In this document: in pieces, positions 2,971 to 17,969 of the stretch
Layout: the number at the start of each line of letters is the position of its first letter
How positions within the stretch are numbered: position 1 is the first letter of the stretch
DNA from: a virus
Reading direction: 5' to 3' (one strand)
DNA: 22,017 nucleotides
Virus record (IMG/VR): IMGVR_UViG_3300037196_000072
Coordinates: 1-22,017 of that record
Notes under the pieces: generated by a model
The model's input: only the letters and a program-made list of their open reading frames with translations
Told to the model about the DNA's origin: nothing
The model's database searches: none
Translations under genes and position numbers: made by a program

Positions 2971-3281
2971 CAGATCAGGTGCCCGCCAAACTGAGCGTCG
3001 ATCTCTTTCGTGAGCCACCAGCCGTTATGGCCGAACTCCCAGATGCGAAAACGCTCCCGTGCATCACCCTTTATCAGGCCCAGGGCAATGGCAGCGGCCT
3101 CGCACCGTGCCCGCAGCGCGGCGGCTTCGGCGTTGTTGACGATCTCAGCCCGGCAGACCAGGCCAAAGAAGAGCCAAAGGCGGCCTGTCCGCCACTGATA
3201 GTTCGGGTAGACCTCGGCGACACGCTCCCATACGCCGTCGTTGCTCCGGGATTCGATTTCGTAGTGGTCCACGTACTTCAT
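2970..3281 (-). CDS. hypothetical 103-aa protein
   Basis: Unrecognised. The protein is 103 residues, starts MKYVDHYEIESRSNDGVW and ends with a tryptophan-rich tail (WEFGHNGWWLTKEI). An alanine-rich helix (about residues 49-68, AEAAALRARCEAAAIALGL) lies in the middle. ATG at 3281 overlaps the polymerase stop (ATGA) and has GGAG eight bases upstream. Its stop overlaps the VRR-NUC start (TGATG). It is therefore translated between the polymerase and the nuclease and may be a small accessory factor, but nothing in the sequence states a function. Confidence 0.7.
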   Translation of the reverse strand: MKYVDHYEIESRSNDGVWERVAEVYPNYQWRTGRLWLFFGLVCRAEIVNNAEAAALRARCEAAAIALGLIKGDARERFRIWEFGHNGWWLTKEIDAQFGGHLI

Positions 3282-5773
3282 TTCATCATCTCCGGTGCGC
3301 GAATCTTGATCGTGCCACTTTTCTTCTCGGCCCAGTTTGCCATTTCTTCATTCCAGTCCATGCCGATCAGTGGTACTTTGGGACGGAAGTGCTCAACGGA
3401 ATCCCGCACGACCTGCGTGACGCTCGGCACCACGTCAGGACGGGTGACGCACATGATTTCGTCATGGATGTTCATGGGGGCAACGTGCCACTGGTTCACC
3501 CCGACCGGCTGCAAGTCCCAGATCGTCCGCTGGACGTGCTTCGTGATTTCGGCACCCGGCGACTGGATTTCATGGTTCGCCGCAGCCCGCATGTTGGCCG
3601 CTTGCATCGAGAAGGCCGCCCCGTAGAGGGCCGAGGAGACGGCACCACCGGCGGTCTGCACGCGGTCGCGGCGGACCACCTTGACCTTGCAATCTTTCCA
3701 GTGCTTGGGCGTGTTACGGGCCAGGTCGAAGATCGCGCGGGCGATGCGGTTCTCCAAGGTGAAATAGCGGCGGAAGCCAAGCATCGTCTCGGCATAGTCG
3801 GCCGGCTCTTTCCAGACGACTTTCGAGCCGATGCCACCGGGCTGCGTCATGGAGCAGAACAAATCGGCCACCCGCTTGCGCCACCGCTTGACGCCAACGA
3901 ATCGGCTGCCGAAGTCTTCGATGGCCTTCTTCGCAACCTCTTCGGTGATGCCCAGGCGATTGACCAGTGTGCTATGGTCGCCGCCGTAGAGCATCGTGCC
4001 GAAGAAGCCCTGCTTGCCCTTCGTATACATATCGTTGGTGGTGCTGCCGTCGCTCGACTTGACCTCTTCGTAGGTCGTGCCGGGGAAGATCGCCATGCCG
4101 AACAAGGCGTGAATCTTCCGGCCGGCGATCAACTCGGCGCGCAGGGCCTCGTCGTTGCACACGGCGTCGGCGATTGTCACCTCGAAGGAACTGAAGTCGC
4201 CGCCGCAGAGCAAATACCCCTCCCAGGTCAGGGGAAACGTCTGCCGGACTTCTTTGGTGTGCTTGATGCCCTGGGCATTGAGGCCGTCCGCCCCGGCCAT
4301 GCGGGACGAGAGGGCACCAATCACGACGAACGAGGCATGGAACTTGCCGGCCAGCAACAACTTGTCGTATAGCTCGATTTCCTTGGCGGCGAACTTGACC
4401 TTGAGGATTTCCAAGGCGCGGACGCCAGCCGGGTGCCGACCCACCTTCAGGACGCCCGTACCGCCGCAGCGAGCACACTGCGGATCATTGCCCTGGCACT
4501 TGCCGCACGGCTCCGGTTCACCGACGTAGCACACGCCGTTGCACTGCGGGCAGATGTCGGTTTCCTTATCCAGGTAGCCTTTGCCCTTGCACGTTGGGCA
4601 CATCTCGCCGATGCCCCACTTGCTGATCGCTTCGAGGTTGGCCTTCTTCGTGGACGTTTCGAGAATCACGCCCTCCGTGTCGTCCATCGCGGCCATGACG
4701 TAGGGGCGGACCTCACTCGGCTTGTTGATATTGATCGGGCTGGCGGCAACCACGGCCTGGGCCTTCGCCATCAGGGCCTTGATCCCTTCGCGGTCGATCG
4801 TGAAGCCGTGCCAGCGGACGGCGGCCACCATGCACGTCAAGGTGGAGTCGTTGTCGCCCGGCTCGGGACAGCCGAAGTGCTTGTCCAACTCGCGCGTATA
4901 AACGATGTCGTCGTTGGCATAGTCGCGGGCGTCCGCACGGGTTGCCCAATGGTCGATGAACTTGCGAATCACGCCCGGCCACGCATACTTCGTGACCTTC
5001 TTCCCCTTGTCCTCCCCATCATCCGTCTCAATCGCCCAGCCCTTCGCAGGACTCGACACGGCCAGGGCCGTGGGCGCATAGCCCAACTCGTAAGGCCGCC
5101 AGGCGGGCGACGGCTCCACGTCTTTGTAGTGATACTTGGGCTTGAGCTTCAGGGCGTGTTCGGCGAGGAACTTCAACCCGCCAGCCGGGTTGAACTTCAG
5201 GACGACATCCTTGAACTCGGTATCCAGGTCGCCAAAAGAATCGTGACGGTCGAAGACCTGCCACTTGGGCGCTTCCGGGTCGGCCGACTTGGCGAAGTAG
5301 ATGTTGTCGAACTGGACCCGGCCCTCTAGCTCGCGGGCCAGAGCGTAGGCGAGTGCCGTAGGCACGCGCTTGATGCGAACATCCTCGCGGGCCATCAGCG
5401 ATTGGTAGGGGCCTTTGCGGCTGTGGAGCATCAGGTCCATGACCGCCGCCGGCTTGACGCATGGGCCATCCTGCCCTTGCGGCTCCAGCATGGCGATCTC
5501 GTCGATGTGCTCGTCGGGAATCCAGTCCGGGTCACAGAGGCGGAAGATGGTGTAGACCTTGCAGACGTGAAACCAGTCGAAGGACAGGTTGAAGCCCACG
5601 ACCGTGTGCTGGCATATCCATTCGATCAGCGCCAGCGTTTCGTGGATCGGCCGCCGCCAGACCTCGTACAGGGTGATAGGCCCGTCTTCCACAGCGTACT
5701 GCAACAGCACCATCATGCTGTGCAGCCCGCAGGTTTCGGTATCGAGATAGAGCTTCGGCGGGTGATTGCTCAT
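3278..5773 (-). CDS. family A DNA polymerase with 3'-5' exonuclease and DnaJ-like zinc-finger insertion
   Basis: The replicative polymerase, 831 residues. The N-terminal proofreading exonuclease has YLDTETCGL (D11, E13), VGFNLSFDWF (D66) and DYANDDIVYT (Y285, D289). The polymerase domain has motif A GGDFSSFEVTIAD (D526, E531), motif B TKGKQGFFGTMLYGG (K587, Y596) and motif C MNIHDEIMC (H770, D771, E772). Between them, in the region that forms the thumb in this family, lie four CxxCxG-type motifs: CPTCKGKGY (392), CPQCNGVC (408), CGKCQGND (423) and CARCGGTGV (433). This layout resembles the DnaJ zinc-binding domain and is not part of standard Pol I. All catalytic residues are present, so the enzyme should be active. 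ATG at 5773 lies three bases past the previous stop; the stop overlaps the next start (ATGA). Confidence 0.95.
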   Translation of the reverse strand: MSNHPPKLYLDTETCGLHSMMVLLQYAVEDGPITLYEVWRRPIHETLALIEWICQHTVVGFNLSFDWFHVCKVYTIFRLCDPDWIPDEHIDEIAMLEPQGQDGPCVKPAAVMDLMLHSRKGPYQSLMAREDVRIKRVPTALAYALARELEGRVQFDNIYFAKSADPEAPKWQVFDRHDSFGDLDTEFKDVVLKFNPAGGLKFLAEHALKLKPKYHYKDVEPSPAWRPYELGYAPTALAVSSPAKGWAIETDDGEDKGKKVTKYAWPGVIRKFIDHWATRADARDYANDDIVYTRELDKHFGCPEPGDNDSTLTCMVAAVRWHGFTIDREGIKALMAKAQAVVAASPININKPSEVRPYVMAAMDDTEGVILETSTKKANLEAISKWGIGEMCPTCKGKGYLDKETDICPQCNGVCYVGEPEPCGKCQGNDPQCARCGGTGVLKVGRHPAGVRALEILKVKFAAKEIELYDKLLLAGKFHASFVVIGALSSRMAGADGLNAQGIKHTKEVRQTFPLTWEGYLLCGGDFSSFEVTIADAVCNDEALRAELIAGRKIHALFGMAIFPGTTYEEVKSSDGSTTNDMYTKGKQGFFGTMLYGGDHSTLVNRLGITEEVAKKAIEDFGSRFVGVKRWRKRVADLFCSMTQPGGIGSKVVWKEPADYAETMLGFRRYFTLENRIARAIFDLARNTPKHWKDCKVKVVRRDRVQTAGGAVSSALYGAAFSMQAANMRAAANHEIQSPGAEITKHVQRTIWDLQPVGVNQWHVAPMNIHDEIMCVTRPDVVPSVTQVVRDSVEHFRPKVPLIGMDWNEEMANWAEKKSGTIKIRAPEMMK

Positions 5774-5776
5774 CGG

Positions 5777-6133
5777 CTAGAAGACCTCGTAAGTCCAACG
5801 GCTGCCATCCTCGTGCTTCCCTTGCACACCGGCGGCCGTCACGGGCTGCGTGCGATAGAGGCCGTTGCGGAAGCGGATCTCCAGAGCGAGGCCCTTGCCG
5901 ATCCACAAGGGGATCGGTGCGCCCGGACTCGGCCAGTGGACGCTGTGAAGCAACTGGCCCACGGTGACGACTCGCAAATGCGGGTCGCTCGAACTGATCT
6001 CCACGATGCCGTGGACCGGATACACGACCTTGATCTCATAGAGGCTGGGTTCCGCCTCCAAGAGGATGATCGTGCCCGGCTTCAGCTTCCGTATGTCGAT
6101 CCCCGGCTCAGCGGGGGCAGTCGGCGTGTCCAT
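5777..6133 (-). CDS. hypothetical small beta-rich protein
   Basis: 118 residues, unrecognised. The first 23 residues are Pro/Ala-rich and likely flexible. After that the chain alternates short hydrophobic strands and turns (PGTIILLEAE, LYEIKVVYPVHGIVEI, LALEIRFRNG), suggesting a small beta barrel. The ATG at 6133 has GGGAG nine bases upstream, which favours it over a GTG at 6172. It overlaps the upstream ParB-like gene by 26 bases and ends three bases before the polymerase start, so the two are probably co-translated. No cysteine, signal peptide or catalytic signature is visible. A nucleic-acid-binding role is possible but is only a guess from fold and position. Confidence 0.65.
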   Translation of the reverse strand: MDTPTAPAEPGIDIRKLKPGTIILLEAEPSLYEIKVVYPVHGIVEISSSDPHLRVVTVGQLLHSVHWPSPGAPIPLWIGKGLALEIRFRNGLYRTQPVTAAGVQGKHEDGSRWTYEVF

Positions 6134-6974
6134 CACATTCGTCTCCCATAAACGCGCCGGAATCAACGGCACTTCTTAGACGTTCCGCCTGGATTTCTTT
6201 CAGCAGTTCCTCGTCAGGGACGTGGCCCGCACACCACGCGGCCACGCGGGGCGGCAGGCCGCCAATGCCGGCGGCCAACATCCGTTCGACCATGCGATTG
6301 ATCTCTTCTCGTGGACGAACGCCACGGCGGCGTTTGTACGTCTTGTCCAGACCGGGCAGGAACTTTCCCTTGCCTCTTTCCCGCGCCTCGACGATCTTGC
6401 GGGCGGCCGAAATCTGTTCCTCAGCCGATTCCATTCCCGCAAGTTGTTCCAGGTTTGCCTGCGAAAGCAGGCCGGCGGCAGCCTTCTGCTGGACCGCTTC
6501 CGGCATCCGCAGCAACCGCACGCGAACGTGGACCCACTTTGTCGGCTGCTTCAATTCCTGGGCGGCGTGCCGCACCCTCGCCCCTTGGGGATAAAGGTTC
6601 TGAATTGCACGGGCCTCTTCCAGGATGTTCAGGCTCTTGCGTTGCAGGTTCTCCACGAGGTTCAACATGCGGGCGTCGTGCTCGCTCAGACCCTCGCAGA
6701 TGTAGGCCGGTATCTCGATCCATTTCAGGAACTCGGTAATGGCGCGGAAGCGGCGGTGCCCGACGATCAGGCGGTACTCACAACCTCCGGCCTCGGTCCA
6801 CGGCTGCACGGCAACCGGGCAGATCAGCCGCCCGGCCTGGGTGATGCTGTCCGCCAGTTCCTTGACCGATTGCAGCGTGAACTCGCCCCGGCAGTTGAAA
6901 GCGGCGTCGTAATAGACGGCCGCCACCGGGATGGGATACGCCTGGTACTGTTCCAGTGGCTTCAGCGGCTTCAT
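6108..6974 (-). CDS. ParB/Srx-fold protein (ParB-like 1)
   Basis: 288 residues. The N-terminal ParB-type domain shows YRLIVGHRRFRAITEF (residues 67-82, the G-x-R-R box) and NLVENLQRKSLNILEEARAI (105-124, the EN..R box). In the ParB family these form the CTP-binding and phosphate-contacting surface. A helix-rich middle follows (QELKQPTKWVHVRVRLL, helix-turn-helix-like), then a basic stretch around KTYKRRRGVRPREE. Roles in the family range from partition to transcription control and nuclease activity. The ATG at 6974 overlaps the stop of the upstream phosphoesterase (ATGA). An in-frame upstream start at 7103 is rejected because it lies deep inside that gene. No ParA partner is visible in the window, so plasmid-type partition is unproven. 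Confidence 0.8.
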   Translation of the reverse strand: MKPLKPLEQYQAYPIPVAAVYYDAAFNCRGEFTLQSVKELADSITQAGRLICPVAVQPWTEAGGCEYRLIVGHRRFRAITEFLKWIEIPAYICEGLSEHDARMLNLVENLQRKSLNILEEARAIQNLYPQGARVRHAAQELKQPTKWVHVRVRLLRMPEAVQQKAAAGLLSQANLEQLAGMESAEEQISAARKIVEARERGKGKFLPGLDKTYKRRRGVRPREEINRMVERMLAAGIGGLPPRVAAWCAGHVPDEELLKEIQAERLRSAVDSGAFMGDECDGHADCPR

Positions 6975-7765
6975 CGCAACGCATGGGAAAACAGCGCCGG
7001 TCGATTGCTGGGTAGCCATTCCCAGACGGCAGTTCGGCCGTCCTCCTCGATCCGCACAAAGGTGTCGTTCGTCCTGGCCCAGCAACCGGAGTTGAAATGG
7101 CACTCGCCAATGCAGCCCGGCTCGTGCGTGTGGCCGTAGACCACTACGTCGGCCCCGGCTTCCTTGCGGTAGGCTTCCACGCCGTCGAGCATCTCGTCCC
7201 TGCGGCCGTGCTGAAGGGTCAAATGCCGCCAGAGGGTCAAGGCCCCTTCCAGCGTGCCGACAAATTGATCCTCTACGGCATGGTGGTTCGCAGTGAACGG
7301 CCCGCGGTTGCGGTCTTCCAGCATCCCGGAGATGATCGCGGTGATCTCACCGATGCCGGGGTTTGCGTCACGGCAGTAGGGGTCGGATTCATGGCCGTGG
7401 AGGAAGGCGAACCGCCGCCCACCGATGGTCTGCTCGAAGGCTCGAACCTCTCGCAGGAAGAATGGATGCCCCGGCATCAAGGCTGGCTGGCCAATGAACG
7501 CCGACAAGGCGCAGTCATGGTTGCCCATGACATAGACTGCCTGCATCTTGTCCAGTCGCGTGAGCAGGTCCAGGTACGCCACGACGGCCCGGCTCATGGT
7601 GGCTTGCCAGAAGTCGAACAAGTCGCCCAGGACATACAGTTGGCCACGCTCGGCCTCCACGTAGTCCAGGAACTTGTAGAAGCGGGCTTCGCGGCCTTCC
7701 ACGGCAAAATTGTCGCGGAAGCCACGGTCGCACAAGTGCAGGTCGCTCACGCAGAAGATAGGCAT
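6971..7765 (-). CDS. calcineurin-like metallophosphoesterase, LpxH-like
   Basis: 264 residues with the complete two-metal phosphoesterase signature: VSDLHL (D8, H10), LGDLFDFW (D48), MGNHD (N82, H83), HGHESD (H123, H125) and YGHTHEPG (H212, H214). The SDLH and GDLFDFW spellings are typical of the UDP-2,3-diacylglucosamine hydrolase (LpxH) branch, but phage relatives may act on nucleotides or DNA ends, so substrate is open. No signal peptide. ATG at 7765 has GGAG eight bases upstream and lies only 22 bases from the end of the tRNA, so both may share a transcript. The stop overlaps the ParB-like start. This is one of two metallophosphoesterases in the window; the other carries an N-terminal helix-turn-helix. 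Confidence 0.88.
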   Translation of the reverse strand: MPIFCVSDLHLCDRGFRDNFAVEGREARFYKFLDYVEAERGQLYVLGDLFDFWQATMSRAVVAYLDLLTRLDKMQAVYVMGNHDCALSAFIGQPALMPGHPFFLREVRAFEQTIGGRRFAFLHGHESDPYCRDANPGIGEITAIISGMLEDRNRGPFTANHHAVEDQFVGTLEGALTLWRHLTLQHGRRDEMLDGVEAYRKEAGADVVVYGHTHEPGCIGECHFNSGCWARTNDTFVRIEEDGRTAVWEWLPSNRPALFSHALR

Positions 7766-7787
7766 AGGCTGTGCTCCATATTTGAGG

Positions 7788-7860
7788 CTGTAGCGGCTGG
7801 ACTCGGACCAGCGACCCTGTGCTTAACGGGCACACGCTCTACCAACTGAGCTACGCTACA
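7788..7860 (-). tRNA. tRNA-Asn (GTT anticodon)
   Basis: A full 73-base cloverleaf on the minus strand. Acceptor stem TGTAGCG/CGCTACA is seven perfect pairs. The D arm is GCTC-AGTTGGTA-GAGC. The anticodon stem is TGTGC/GCACA with loop CCGTTAA, so the anticodon is GTT for Asn. The variable loop is GGGTC and the T arm is GCTGG-TCCGAGT-CCAGC. The discriminator base is G, as in Asn tRNAs. CCA is not encoded. Two positions are odd: base 33, normally U, is C, and base 55, normally U of T-psi-C, is also C. All stems are intact, so it is probably expressed, but the decoding consequence of C33 is uncertain. Confidence 0.9.
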
Positions 7861-11903: not shown

Positions 11904-12182
11904 TCAGTCAACAGCTAGGAAAACTTCGATCATGCTCTCGTACTCGGGCTTCCATTCCAGGAACGTCTTGAAGATGGTGTCGCAAACCCAATCGCAACTG
12001 TCTTCATCGCCATCCACGCCGATCTCCACTTCGACCGCGTTATCGTCGTCAGGGTCGTGAAAGGTCACGGCGAGCAGCGAATCCTCGAAGACCCGTCGCA
12101 ACGTTCGTCGCACCCGCGAACGATTGGGGCAGTAGCTCCACCGACCCCTGGACAAGACGATCTCGCACACAACATGGGTCAC
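11904..12182 (-). CDS. hypothetical 92-aa protein
   Basis: Unrecognised. A basic first half (SRGRWSYCPNRSRVRRTLRR) is followed by an acidic stretch (HDPDDDNAVEVEIGVDGDED) and a C-terminal helix region (VCDTIFKTFLEWKPEYESMI). Start is the GTG at 12182, which overlaps the helicase stop as GTGA, so translation is probably coupled to the helicase. A longer frame opening at 12347 runs through the helicase gene and is rejected. An accessory role to the helicase is plausible from the coupling but unproven. Confidence 0.6.
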   Translation of the reverse strand: MTHVVCEIVLSRGRWSYCPNRSRVRRTLRRVFEDSLLAVTFHDPDDDNAVEVEIGVDGDEDSCDWVCDTIFKTFLEWKPEYESMIEVFLAVD

Positions 12183-14215
12183 AGCGTCACTTCCTCCACT
12201 CGCATTTCGCCTTCTTCGCCGGCATCCTTCCAATCGACGCCGTGGAGGATTTCGCCCATCGTCATTAGCTCCAGCGTGCGGTTGGCACGAATCACATCCA
12301 GCACGCGGTTGTCGCTGGGCAGATGGATCAGGTCCACGATGGTGCATCCCAGGTTCTCGTCCATGCCCTTACGGTGGATGCGATCCTCGCTCTGCACGCG
12401 GTACTCCGGTTTCCAACTGTTGGACCAGTACACCGCCATGCGGGCCTCCACCAAGGTCAGGCTCATGCCGCCCGACTCGGGATTGGCCACGAAGGCAACC
12501 TTGCCGTGCCCCTCCATGTTGGCCCAGTAATCCAGCGGCTCTTCACCGGTGGTCAAGACGCCTTCCGGGCTGTCGCTCTTGGCCGTGAAGATTTGGAAGT
12601 TGCCCTGGTCGCAGCGCACCACGTCCCACTTTTCCTTGAGGCACAGCTTGACGATGCGATCCACGGAGCCCGTGAAGCCGGCGAAAACCACCAGCCGCCC
12701 GACTTCCTCGTTCTCGTCCAGCAGCATCTTCAGGGCGGCAGCCTTCGGGCAGGGCACTTCCCGCGTGATGCGCACCTTCCTGGGGACTTCCCGCTTGCCA
12801 TCGCACAGCGGGCAGGGAACCGTCTCCTTGACCAGGCGGCCCACCAGATCGGGGTCCAGCATGTCGATGGCCTGGTAGCGGGCGTCGGGATCGTCCGGGT
12901 CCACCCACTCGGCGACCGTGCCATCCGGGCAATGCGTGCAAGGCGTCATGCCATCCTGGACTTCCCGGTACTGGAAACCGTCGCTCAGTTCCCGCAGCAA
13001 GGTCATGCCCGTCACGGCGTTGGGGGCCGTATGGACGATGGATTCCGCCACGCGCAAGACACTGGCTGTAGGCTTGCACACGATCTTGCGGTATCGCTTC
13101 TCGGGCAGGTGCAAGCAGTCCTTCTTGTGCTTGACGATTACCAGCCCTTTGAGCCGCTGGTAGAGATAGGCGACTTCGTTGGTACTGGGGACGAACTTGT
13201 GGTAGTCGTCCGGGTCCGTTATGCCGTCCAATTCGTGCGGCCCTTCCTCGAAGGTGTCGCCGCACTCGGCACACTTTCGCTCGTCGTCTTTCCAGCCGAT
13301 GCGCTTCTTGAACTTGCCGGCATCGAATTGCTGCTCGACCATGAAAGCCAGCCGCTCTTCCATCGCCCGGCGGCTGCCTTCCTTGACGTAGCCCGGCCAG
13401 GTGATCTCGCACTGGCTCCACCAGTCGCAGGGCGTCTTGGGCGACGGCGTGCCGGACATTTCGATCACGTAGCCCTCGTAGCCGTACTGGTCGCGGATCA
13501 AGTCGGCGAGCTTCTGGCAGGCTTTCGAGCGTTGTGACGTGTCGTTCTTGCATCGGCTCGATTCATCGGCCACGAAGAACCGAGGCAAAGTCTGCGAGCC
13601 ATCCCATTCGTCCATCACACGCACGAGACCTTCATAGGTGAAGAACTCCACCTGGATGTGATCGAAGGGGAAGCCCCACAGCTTGAACTCGCGCTTGATG
13701 TTCGGGATGCTGGTCTTCGGCCCTGCCCACCACACCAAGTTGACGCCCGACTTCTCAATCACCATCTGGGCGGCTAGGGTCTTGCCGGTGCCCATTTCGG
13801 CACCGAATATCTGGTAGTGGTACGTCAGACCGGCATCCGCCATGTCCGCCTGGTGCGGCATGAAGGTCTGCGGCACGCCGCCTCGCGTCAGGGGCCGGTA
13901 CTGGTGGCGCACGAGTGGCCGGTCGAACCAGGCGTAAACATCCTCACCACAGAGATAGGCGATCTGGAAGCGGTTGCGCTGGCAGTCGTCCACCGACCAG
14001 ACCATCTTCTTGGCGTATTCGCCCTCGTCGTCGTAGCCGTGGAAGTGCGAGCCGCGCATGGCCTTGACTTCCGACGACAGGCCATAGCGGGTCTTCGTGC
14101 CGACCTTGCCGTCCCAGAAGTAGATGCGGCCATCTTTTCTCTCCAGCAAAACTGGCAGGCGAATCCGCGTACCGCTGGATGTCGTGGCTTCGATCTTCAC
14201 CGATTCAACCGACAT
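12179..14215 (-). CDS. SNF2-type superfamily 2 helicase/ATPase with zinc-binding insertions
   Basis: 678 residues. The ATPase motifs in order are FMPHQADMAD (Q-type motif, 118), GAEMGTGKT (Walker A, K145), VADESSRCKN (Walker B region, D217-E218), MSGTPSP (motif III, 253), NPESGGMSLTLVEA (motif V, 578) and QSEDRIHRKG (motif VI, R612 and R615). The DES and QSEDRIHR spellings match SNF2-like dsDNA translocases. Cysteine pairs CAEC (315), CTHC (426) and CPLC (468) lie between the two RecA lobes and could bind zinc. Phage members are thought to act in replication or recombination remodelling. ATG at 14215 has GGGAG six bases upstream. It lies 10 bases after the methyltransferase stop, so the two are likely co-transcribed. 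Confidence 0.88.
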   Translation of the reverse strand: MSVESVKIEATTSSGTRIRLPVLLERKDGRIYFWDGKVGTKTRYGLSSEVKAMRGSHFHGYDDEGEYAKKMVWSVDDCQRNRFQIAYLCGEDVYAWFDRPLVRHQYRPLTRGGVPQTFMPHQADMADAGLTYHYQIFGAEMGTGKTLAAQMVIEKSGVNLVWWAGPKTSIPNIKREFKLWGFPFDHIQVEFFTYEGLVRVMDEWDGSQTLPRFFVADESSRCKNDTSQRSKACQKLADLIRDQYGYEGYVIEMSGTPSPKTPCDWWSQCEITWPGYVKEGSRRAMEERLAFMVEQQFDAGKFKKRIGWKDDERKCAECGDTFEEGPHELDGITDPDDYHKFVPSTNEVAYLYQRLKGLVIVKHKKDCLHLPEKRYRKIVCKPTASVLRVAESIVHTAPNAVTGMTLLRELSDGFQYREVQDGMTPCTHCPDGTVAEWVDPDDPDARYQAIDMLDPDLVGRLVKETVPCPLCDGKREVPRKVRITREVPCPKAAALKMLLDENEEVGRLVVFAGFTGSVDRIVKLCLKEKWDVVRCDQGNFQIFTAKSDSPEGVLTTGEEPLDYWANMEGHGKVAFVANPESGGMSLTLVEARMAVYWSNSWKPEYRVQSEDRIHRKGMDENLGCTIVDLIHLPSDNRVLDVIRANRTLELMTMGEILHGVDWKDAGEEGEMRVEEVTL

Positions 14216-16991: not shown

Positions 16992-17969
16992 TTACTCGTT
17001 GTCGTTCATGTTGCTCGTCTCGGTTTGGTCACATGGCCTTACCCTCCGTTCCAGTACAGTCGCGCGGGTTCGCGCTAGGAATTTCTCTCGTTGTTCGCGG
17101 ATGCTCTCCTCGTCCAGATTCAGCGCCCATTGCAGCGCCAGATACCAGCCGTCCACCGGCGTCTTGCACTCGGCCTTCACAATGGCCAAGCCGCCCAGGC
17201 GATGCTCGCGGTACTCGGCAAGCACTTCCTTCACAAAACGCAAGTAAGGCACTGGCTCGAAGTCCTTGCAGTAATCGTGCAGCTTCCCTTGGCGGGCCGC
17301 CTCTTGAATCTGCTTGACCAGCCGGGCAGCCACGGGAACGAACTCCCGCGCCGAGGCGGTTGTTGCCAAGTCCAAGAGCTGGGCTTGGTGAAATCGCGGC
17401 AACTTGGCGAGCACGTATGCCGAGCCAAGCGGTATCTCGCCGCGTTCCACGGCCTTCTGGATGTCCGCCCGCAAGCTGAGCAGATCAAGCTGCTGCCGGA
17501 CCCACTCCGGGGTCTTATGGACCAGGTTACTCACATCGGCCAGCGTGGCATCCCTTCCCTGCCGAGCCATGATGGCATCCATGATCCGCCTGATCTGGCG
17601 GGCATACTCGATCACGGTCGTCTCGGGCCGCAAGGCATTGGCCTGAATCTGGATCGCAAGCACGTCTTCGTCCGTAAGGTTGTGCTTGACGATGCAGGGC
17701 ATTGCCGGCCGCCGCAGTTCGCAACATGCCGCCCGCCGGTAAAGGCCGTCCACGACTTCCATCTTGCCCGGCGTTCGCGGCGATGGCCGCACGCAGATCG
17801 AGTTGAGGAGGCCCTGGTGGGCAATGGAGTCACGCAGTTCCAGGTACTCGACAGACTCCCGATTCACGACCCGCAGGACGACCCACGGCTCGACGATCTG
17901 GTCCAGCGGAATCAGGCGGAATTCGTCAGGTTGCTCGGGCATCGGTGCATCCGCGTCATACTTCGACAC
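16992..17969 (-). CDS. ParB-like DNA-binding protein (ParB-like 2)
   Basis: 325 residues. The N-terminal part (FRLIPLDQIVEPWVVLRVVN) leads to the ParB box EVVDGLYRRAACCELRRP (71-88; G75, R78, R79) and to QIQANALRPETT (108-118), which replaces the usual EN..R box by AN..R. A helix-turn-helix follows (TLADVSNLVHKTPEWVRQQL, 142-161), then a helical domain. It differs clearly from the other ParB-like protein at 6108-6974, which has the EN..R box. The start is taken as GTG at 17969, with GGGAG about ten bases upstream inside the palindrome arm; ATG at 17942 is the alternative. As the first gene of the left arm, overlapping a perfect inverted repeat, it is a candidate autoregulator or origin-binding protein. 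Confidence 0.78.
   Translation of the reverse strand: MSKYDADAPMPEQPDEFRLIPLDQIVEPWVVLRVVNRESVEYLELRDSIAHQGLLNSICVRPSPRTPGKMEVVDGLYRRAACCELRRPAMPCIVKHNLTDEDVLAIQIQANALRPETTVIEYARQIRRIMDAIMARQGRDATLADVSNLVHKTPEWVRQQLDLLSLRADIQKAVERGEIPLGSAYVLAKLPRFHQAQLLDLATTASAREFVPVAARLVKQIQEAARQGKLHDYCKDFEPVPYLRFVKEVLAEYREHRLGGLAIVKAECKTPVDGWYLALQWALNLDEESIREQREKFLARTRATVLERRVRPCDQTETSNMNDNE

Follow-up and report, generated by a model that had tools for sequence, protein, structure and literature searches.

A cysteine module in the H2-I thumb loop of a viral family A DNA polymerase, and J-domains nested in the same module of related polymerases

T7 gp5 with thioredoxin is the textbook case of an accessory function acquired through a thumb insertion in a phage polymerase. 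A cysteine-bearing module has been described in HMO-2011-type marine phages, in whose DNA polymerases the exonuclease and polymerase domains have a partial DnaJ central domain between them (PMC9038755, PMC6918029); the GenBank record of HMO-2011 gp12 (Puniceispirillum phage) notes PF00684. Among solved structures, the DNA polymerase I of Thermus phage G20c (PDB 7r0k) is the best match in both sequence and fold to the enzyme described here. Proteins with J-domains, the other element of this study, are also known from viruses and organelles. Phage RB43 Rki is a J-domain protein that binds DnaK, and the J-domain of T antigen is used in viral DNA replication among other tasks (PMC3486835). The J-domain of Mdj1 is required for the maintenance of mtDNA, and the mitochondrial polymerase Mip1 is protected by Mdj1 under extreme heat (PMC3750215).

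The stretch of DNA analysed (the window) is a viral record of 22,017 bases. Its polymerase gene encodes a protein of 831 aa, assigned to DNA polymerase in PHROGs. The family A assignment made earlier from the letters alone held in Pfam, where DNA_pol_A (PF00476) was matched at 71.4 bits (curated cut-off 34.3), and motifs A, B and C are kept. An AlphaFold2 model based on a 77-row alignment has a mean pLDDT of 90.6 and a pTM of 0.88; residues 4-818 align to Klenow-type enzymes and to the phage G20c polymerase with Z of 17-20. Coordinates of the features are listed in Table 1.

Table 1. Features of the window polymerase, in window coordinates (residue numbers refer to the 831-aa protein).
Feature	Position	Strand	Basis or remark
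Family A DNA polymerase with 3'-5' exonuclease	3278..5773	-	831 aa, open throughout; PF00476, AF2 model, fold match
Exonuclease motif I, D11 and E13	5735..5743	-	invariant, 82 sequences
Thumb helix H2 equivalent, residues 377-383 (STKKANLEAI region), directly before the insertion	4625..4645	-	DSSP on model; alignment
Thumb insertion = cysteine module, residues 387-446	4436..4615	-	alignment of relatives, AF2 model
CxxC pair 1 (C392, C395)	4589..4600	-	8-Cys clade only
CxxC pair 2 (C408, C411)	4541..4552	-	gained or lost jointly with pair 1
CxxC pair 3 (C423, C426)	4496..4507	-	74-75 of 82 sequences
J-domain insertion site of relatives, between residues 427 and 431, empty in window	4484..4492	-	relatives' alignment, Pfam
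CxxC pair 4 (C433, C436)	4466..4477	-	75 of 82 sequences
Thumb helix I equivalent, residues 448-475 (long helix), directly after the insertion	4349..4432	-	DSSP on model; alignment
Motif A aspartate D526	4196..4198	-	invariant
Loop after motif A, residues 549-552, second-module site in relatives, empty in window	4118..4129	-	alignment
Motif B, K587 to F591	4001..4015	-	present in at least 80 of 82
Motif C, H770-D771	3461..3466	-	present in at least 80 of 82

Relatives were taken from a first scan of viral contigs (24 loci), from a profile scan of viral contigs (the best 80 of 105 confirmed loci) and from bacterial and archaeal genomes (six MAG loci); conservation counts cover 82 distinct polymerase rows. 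Named phages contained no close relative, since matches in the phage collection had 22-28% identity and covered no more than 54% of the protein, and the plasmid collection contained no relative of the window polymerase. The exonuclease residues D11, E13, D66, Y285 and D289 and the motif A residues D526 and E531 are invariant in 82/82 sequences, while K587, F591, H770 and D771 are conserved in at least 80. The cysteine module leaves both active sites untouched, as the sequence-only reading had stated for the catalytic residues.

Four CxxC pairs lie within residues 392-436 (window 4466-4600, minus strand), which confirms to the base the four motifs reported in that reading. The pairs read CPTCKGKG (from residue 392), CPQCNGVC (408), CGKCQGND (423) and CARCGGTG (433), and the full CxxCxGxG form is present in motifs 1 and 4 only. 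Chance cysteines were ruled out by shuffling the protein: four CxxC within 48 aa occurred in none of 20,000 shuffles (three CxxC in 16). The segment was modelled at a pLDDT of about 80-90. It is an insertion in the thumb between the exonuclease and motif A, conserved in relatives of an enzyme with intact catalytic residues, and the view of it as an added module and not decay stands. The module of the window is probably a compact zinc-knuckle of two CxxC...CxxC units in tandem, presumably with one zinc each.

Helices were placed by alignment with E. coli Pol I, T7 gp5 and HMO-2011 gp12, the names H, H1, H2 and I being those of the known Klenow and T7 structures. By this alignment the insertion lies in the H2-I loop in the window polymerase, in H1-H2 in HMO-2011 and in H-H1 in T7; since each lies in a different loop, three different thumb-tip loops have received modules. 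T7 gp5, like the window polymerase, is a phage family A enzyme with a module inserted in its thumb tip, but this insert, the thioredoxin-binding domain between H and H1, is without a zinc motif in the alignment. The window polymerase has no insertion between H and H1, which rules out a T7-like position; the proposal that its module occupies a place comparable to the T7 insertion was therefore not borne out. HMO-2011 gp12 is also family A and also has a DnaJ-like CxxCxGxG module between exonuclease and motif A, and in this general feature the window polymerase agrees with HMO-2011-type enzymes. The thumb loop differs, however: the HMO-2011 module precedes the STSKTNLELL helix, whereas that of the window follows the matching STKKANLEAI helix. 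HMO-2011 has two motifs and no reported J-domain, against four motifs in the window, and at E 1e-5 the phage records to which the window polymerase had a match did not include HMO-2011. In its alignment with the window polymerase, the G20c polymerase lacks a cysteine module in the thumb loop. Fold searches listed polymerases only and are uninformative on small modules.

The sequence-only reading knew of no description of such an architecture, and here it is contradicted by the HMO-2011-type papers, which describe a partial DnaJ central domain (PMC9038755, PMC6918029); the general architecture is already known. Apparently new here are the H2-I position, the tandem eight-cysteine form and the J-domain in sister polymerases. 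No report of these, of the second module described below or of any J-domain inside a DNA polymerase was found in the literature searched, which covered few subscription journals.

In DnaJ, zinc pair 2+3 is nested inside pair 1+4. The window module resembles DnaJ (Hsp40 class I) in its CxxCxG repeats, and this part of the comparison made in the earlier reading stands. The full DnaJ layout probably does not: there are four CxxC pairs and not four complete CxxCxGxG repeats, and the differences among relatives favour two units in tandem, 1+2 and 3+4, with growth by addition of 1+2 to a 3+4 core, so that one zinc per tandem unit would be expected. The excised thumb segment scored 19.4 bits against the DnaJ central domain profile PF00684, below the cut-off of 32.7, and is thus not assigned to that family. 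Order and apparent nesting differ from DnaJ, the G/F linker and C-terminal domains were not seen, and the carrier is a polymerase.

Among the 82 rows, two pairs are found in 49 polymerases and four pairs in 17, in both groups without a J-domain; seven rows have no pairs, five have a J-domain and four have other numbers of pairs. Motifs 3 and 4 keep their cysteines in 74-75 rows, with gaps in these columns in six, which rules out a variable, non-conserved linker, the outcome that the survey of homologues might have had. Motifs 1 and 2 form one block N-terminal of 3 and 4. This distribution suggests a core unit made up of motifs 3+4, to which motifs 1+2 were added in tandem in the clade of the window. 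In the cysteine-less relatives L095, L097, L105, L106, L107 and L109 the insertion is reduced to 4-9 residues; the polymerase family can dispense with the thumb module, since six or seven relatives lack it. The largest thumb module seen, with six CxxC pairs, is that of L086 (5977-8673). A second cysteine module with two to four CxxC pairs lies directly after motif A in about 22 of the 82 rows; its carriers include L083 (5992-8712), L050, L053, L054, L056, L066, L075, L078, L094 and L111. In L083 the second module scores 33.2 bits against PF00684, above the cut-off of 32.7. L010 (5001-7625) and L012 (5001-7622) have an additional insert, some 40 aa long and free of cysteine pairs, between motifs B and C. 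The reading of one relative, from a Pontiellaceae bin (L181, G047:C326:2523-4820), passes through a single TAG codon within the matched region.

Six contigs contain a J-domain within the polymerase frame: L043 (= L013), L046 (= L016), L053, L056, L091 (= L028) and L151. They represent five distinct phages, L053 and L151 being identical over 9,995 bases although from different data sets. In the carriers, motifs 3 and 4 are separated by about 52-60 additional residues, and in all six the insert matches PF00226 at 37.2-49.5 bits (cut-off 27.8). The HPD motif is intact in all six, and HPD together with the YRxL...FK core is kept in 5/5 distinct versions. In phmmer the inserts match DnaJ, Hsp40s and SV40 T antigens, with PDB entries of T antigens among the matches of the L046 insert. 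In the L046 model (pLDDT 87.8), helices 444-458 and 466-487 flank the HPD loop. By these profile and motif matches the insert is a J-domain with intact HPD. Pairwise dN/dS between the J-domains is 0.11-0.43 in nine of ten pairs, with dS saturated in the tenth, and on these values the J-domains are judged to be under purifying selection. An assembly artefact is unlikely, because there are five distinct in-frame versions, one of them identical in two assemblies.

The window polymerase itself has no PF00226 match in the Pfam search. No other J-domain above the PF00226 cut-off was found in the 42 viral records searched. In named phages the J-domain matches are annotated as DnaJ or hypothetical protein, none as polymerase, and in seven unannotated phage records that were checked the J-domains lie in DnaJ or other non-polymerase ORFs. 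A J-domain scan of viral contigs (best 80 of 478 confirmed) gave five polymerase contigs among the matches listed, all already known. One carrier, L028:3741-5882 (= L091:5995-8133), encodes a polymerase of only 713 aa, with an in-frame loss of the motif B stretch between HALFGMAL and NVHDE; this could reflect an inactive enzyme or a collapsed assembly.

The sister of the window polymerase, L043, is 93% identical and has a J-domain. On the polymerase tree, built with inserts removed, the five distinct J-domain rows need five changes, all of which are forced by starred branches. The J-domains are 43-62% alike, as against 72-91% for the polymerases that carry them, and L053 and L056, with 90% identity outside the module, share 43% in the J-domain. 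J-domains that are scattered and less alike than their carriers suggest that the site was refilled or exchanged. Separate gains or exchange of J-domains appear to fit best; a single old gain, followed by many losses and fast change, fits less well.

Several explanations can be given for the module. The one favoured here, at slightly better than even chances, is that the zinc-knuckle in the H2-I loop is a docking or exchange site for accessory functions, and that the forms with a J-domain recruit host DnaK. The docking part is suggested by the use of one fixed thumb loop, by cysteines that are all present or all absent, and by J-domains at one place between pairs 3 and 4 in six contigs. DnaK recruitment is suggested by the binding of DnaK by Rki and by the need of mtDNA for the Mdj1 J-domain. 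Also in favour of this explanation are the confidently modelled segment, the J-domain matches above the Pfam cut-off, the retained HPD and YRxL...FK core, the low dN/dS values, the scattered and divergent J-domains and the version found identical in two assemblies. The absence of a J-domain from the window and most relatives, and of the thumb module from six or seven of them, is counted against it. It is unlikely, though the least so among the rivals, that the module is purely a DNA-gripping element, a longer thumb tip that holds the product duplex and raises processivity with no partner, to which J-domains were a later addition. The thumb tips of Pol I enzymes are known to touch the duplex, the module lies at the thumb tip beside helix I, and the four-cysteine form alone is the commonest (49/82); yet the presence of J-domains in just this loop in five distinct polymerases would be left unexplained. 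A T7-like arrangement, in which the module is bound by a processivity factor of host or phage origin, appears rather improbable: it shares with T7 a thumb-tip insertion in a phage replicative polymerase, and cysteine modules commonly bind proteins, but the loop is H2-I and not H-H1, the alignment shows no sequence likeness to the T7 domain, and no candidate partner was identified.

Quite improbable is descent of the module from the DnaJ cysteine-rich domain, with retention of unfolded substrate and with the J-domain forms as a near-complete DnaJ inside a polymerase. The CxxCxG spacing, the weak PF00684 match of the thumb segment, the L083 second module that exceeds the cut-off and the J-domains within the cysteine module of relatives speak for such a descent. 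The thumb segment stays under the curated cut-off, however, its pairs appear to have been added in tandem while those of DnaJ are nested, the J-domain is inside the module instead of N-terminal as in DnaJ, and the substrate-binding C-terminal domains were not seen. Least probable of all, by a little, are thumb-tip inserts as tolerated passengers, whose gain and loss would hardly affect the enzyme. The scattered J-domains (five changes for five rows), the divergence of the L053 and L056 J-domains within cores that are 90% identical and the relatives without thumb cysteines would agree with this; but the retention of the motif 3+4 cysteines, of HPD in all J-domains and of low dN/dS values argues that both elements are under constraint.

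Under the docking explanation, the module would be grafted into the H2-I loop, on the part of the thumb facing the product duplex, and a zinc site would clasp both ends of the loop; a whole domain could therefore sit there with the thumb undisturbed. The bare module of the window would most likely contact DNA or a replisome partner. J-domains bind Hsp70 (DnaK) and trigger its ATP hydrolysis, and the J-domain of the sister polymerases should do the same with host DnaK, bringing the Hsp70 machine to the polymerase or fork, where it might fold the polymerase, remodel partners or hold the polymerase on DNA. SV40 T antigens and Rki are comparable to these relatives (not to the window) in that a viral J-domain is expected to act on host Hsp70; they are not polymerases, and the T-antigen J-domain is N-terminal and not inside a thumb loop. 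The suggestion in the sequence-only reading of a chaperone-like host factor is thus supported by a true J-domain inside the module of sister polymerases, but not by the polymerase of the window, which has none. A bolder form of the docking explanation, thought possible at somewhat less than even chances, is that the zinc unit is a socket filled several times by J-domains, with host DnaK as polymerase accessory at the fork and the window as the empty socket. No Hsp70 gene was found in the six J-domain contigs, which are possibly fragments.

The family of the window adds a third thumb loop used for accessory insertions, with a J-domain there in some members. Lambda replication, SV40 T antigen and mitochondrial Mdj1 have all posed the question of whether and how Hsp70 works at the replication fork; for this question, natural polymerases of about 92% identity that differ in the presence of a J-domain are a ready comparison.

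One relative, L116, lies at 23.8-26.2 kb of a 444-kb contig (QQVP01000119.1) from a Planctomycetota MAG. Translations read by eye placed genes resembling those for terminase and portal at 60-75 kb and efflux and permease genes of the ordinary bacterial kind at 150-162 kb, along with a tyrosine-recombinase-like gene at 6.4-7.4 kb. The L116 polymerase region (also L267-L269) is likely a prophage, on a putative Planctomycetota bin. In the window, an SNF2-like helicase (12179-14215, minus strand) has the CxxC pairs CAECGD, CTHCPDG and CPLCDGK, which raises the possibility that such modules are a repeated feature of the phage's replication proteins. Two different ParB-like genes (6108-7103 and 16992-17969, both minus strand) occur within the 22-kb fragment, as does a tRNA-Asn (gtt) at 7786-7860 on the minus strand.
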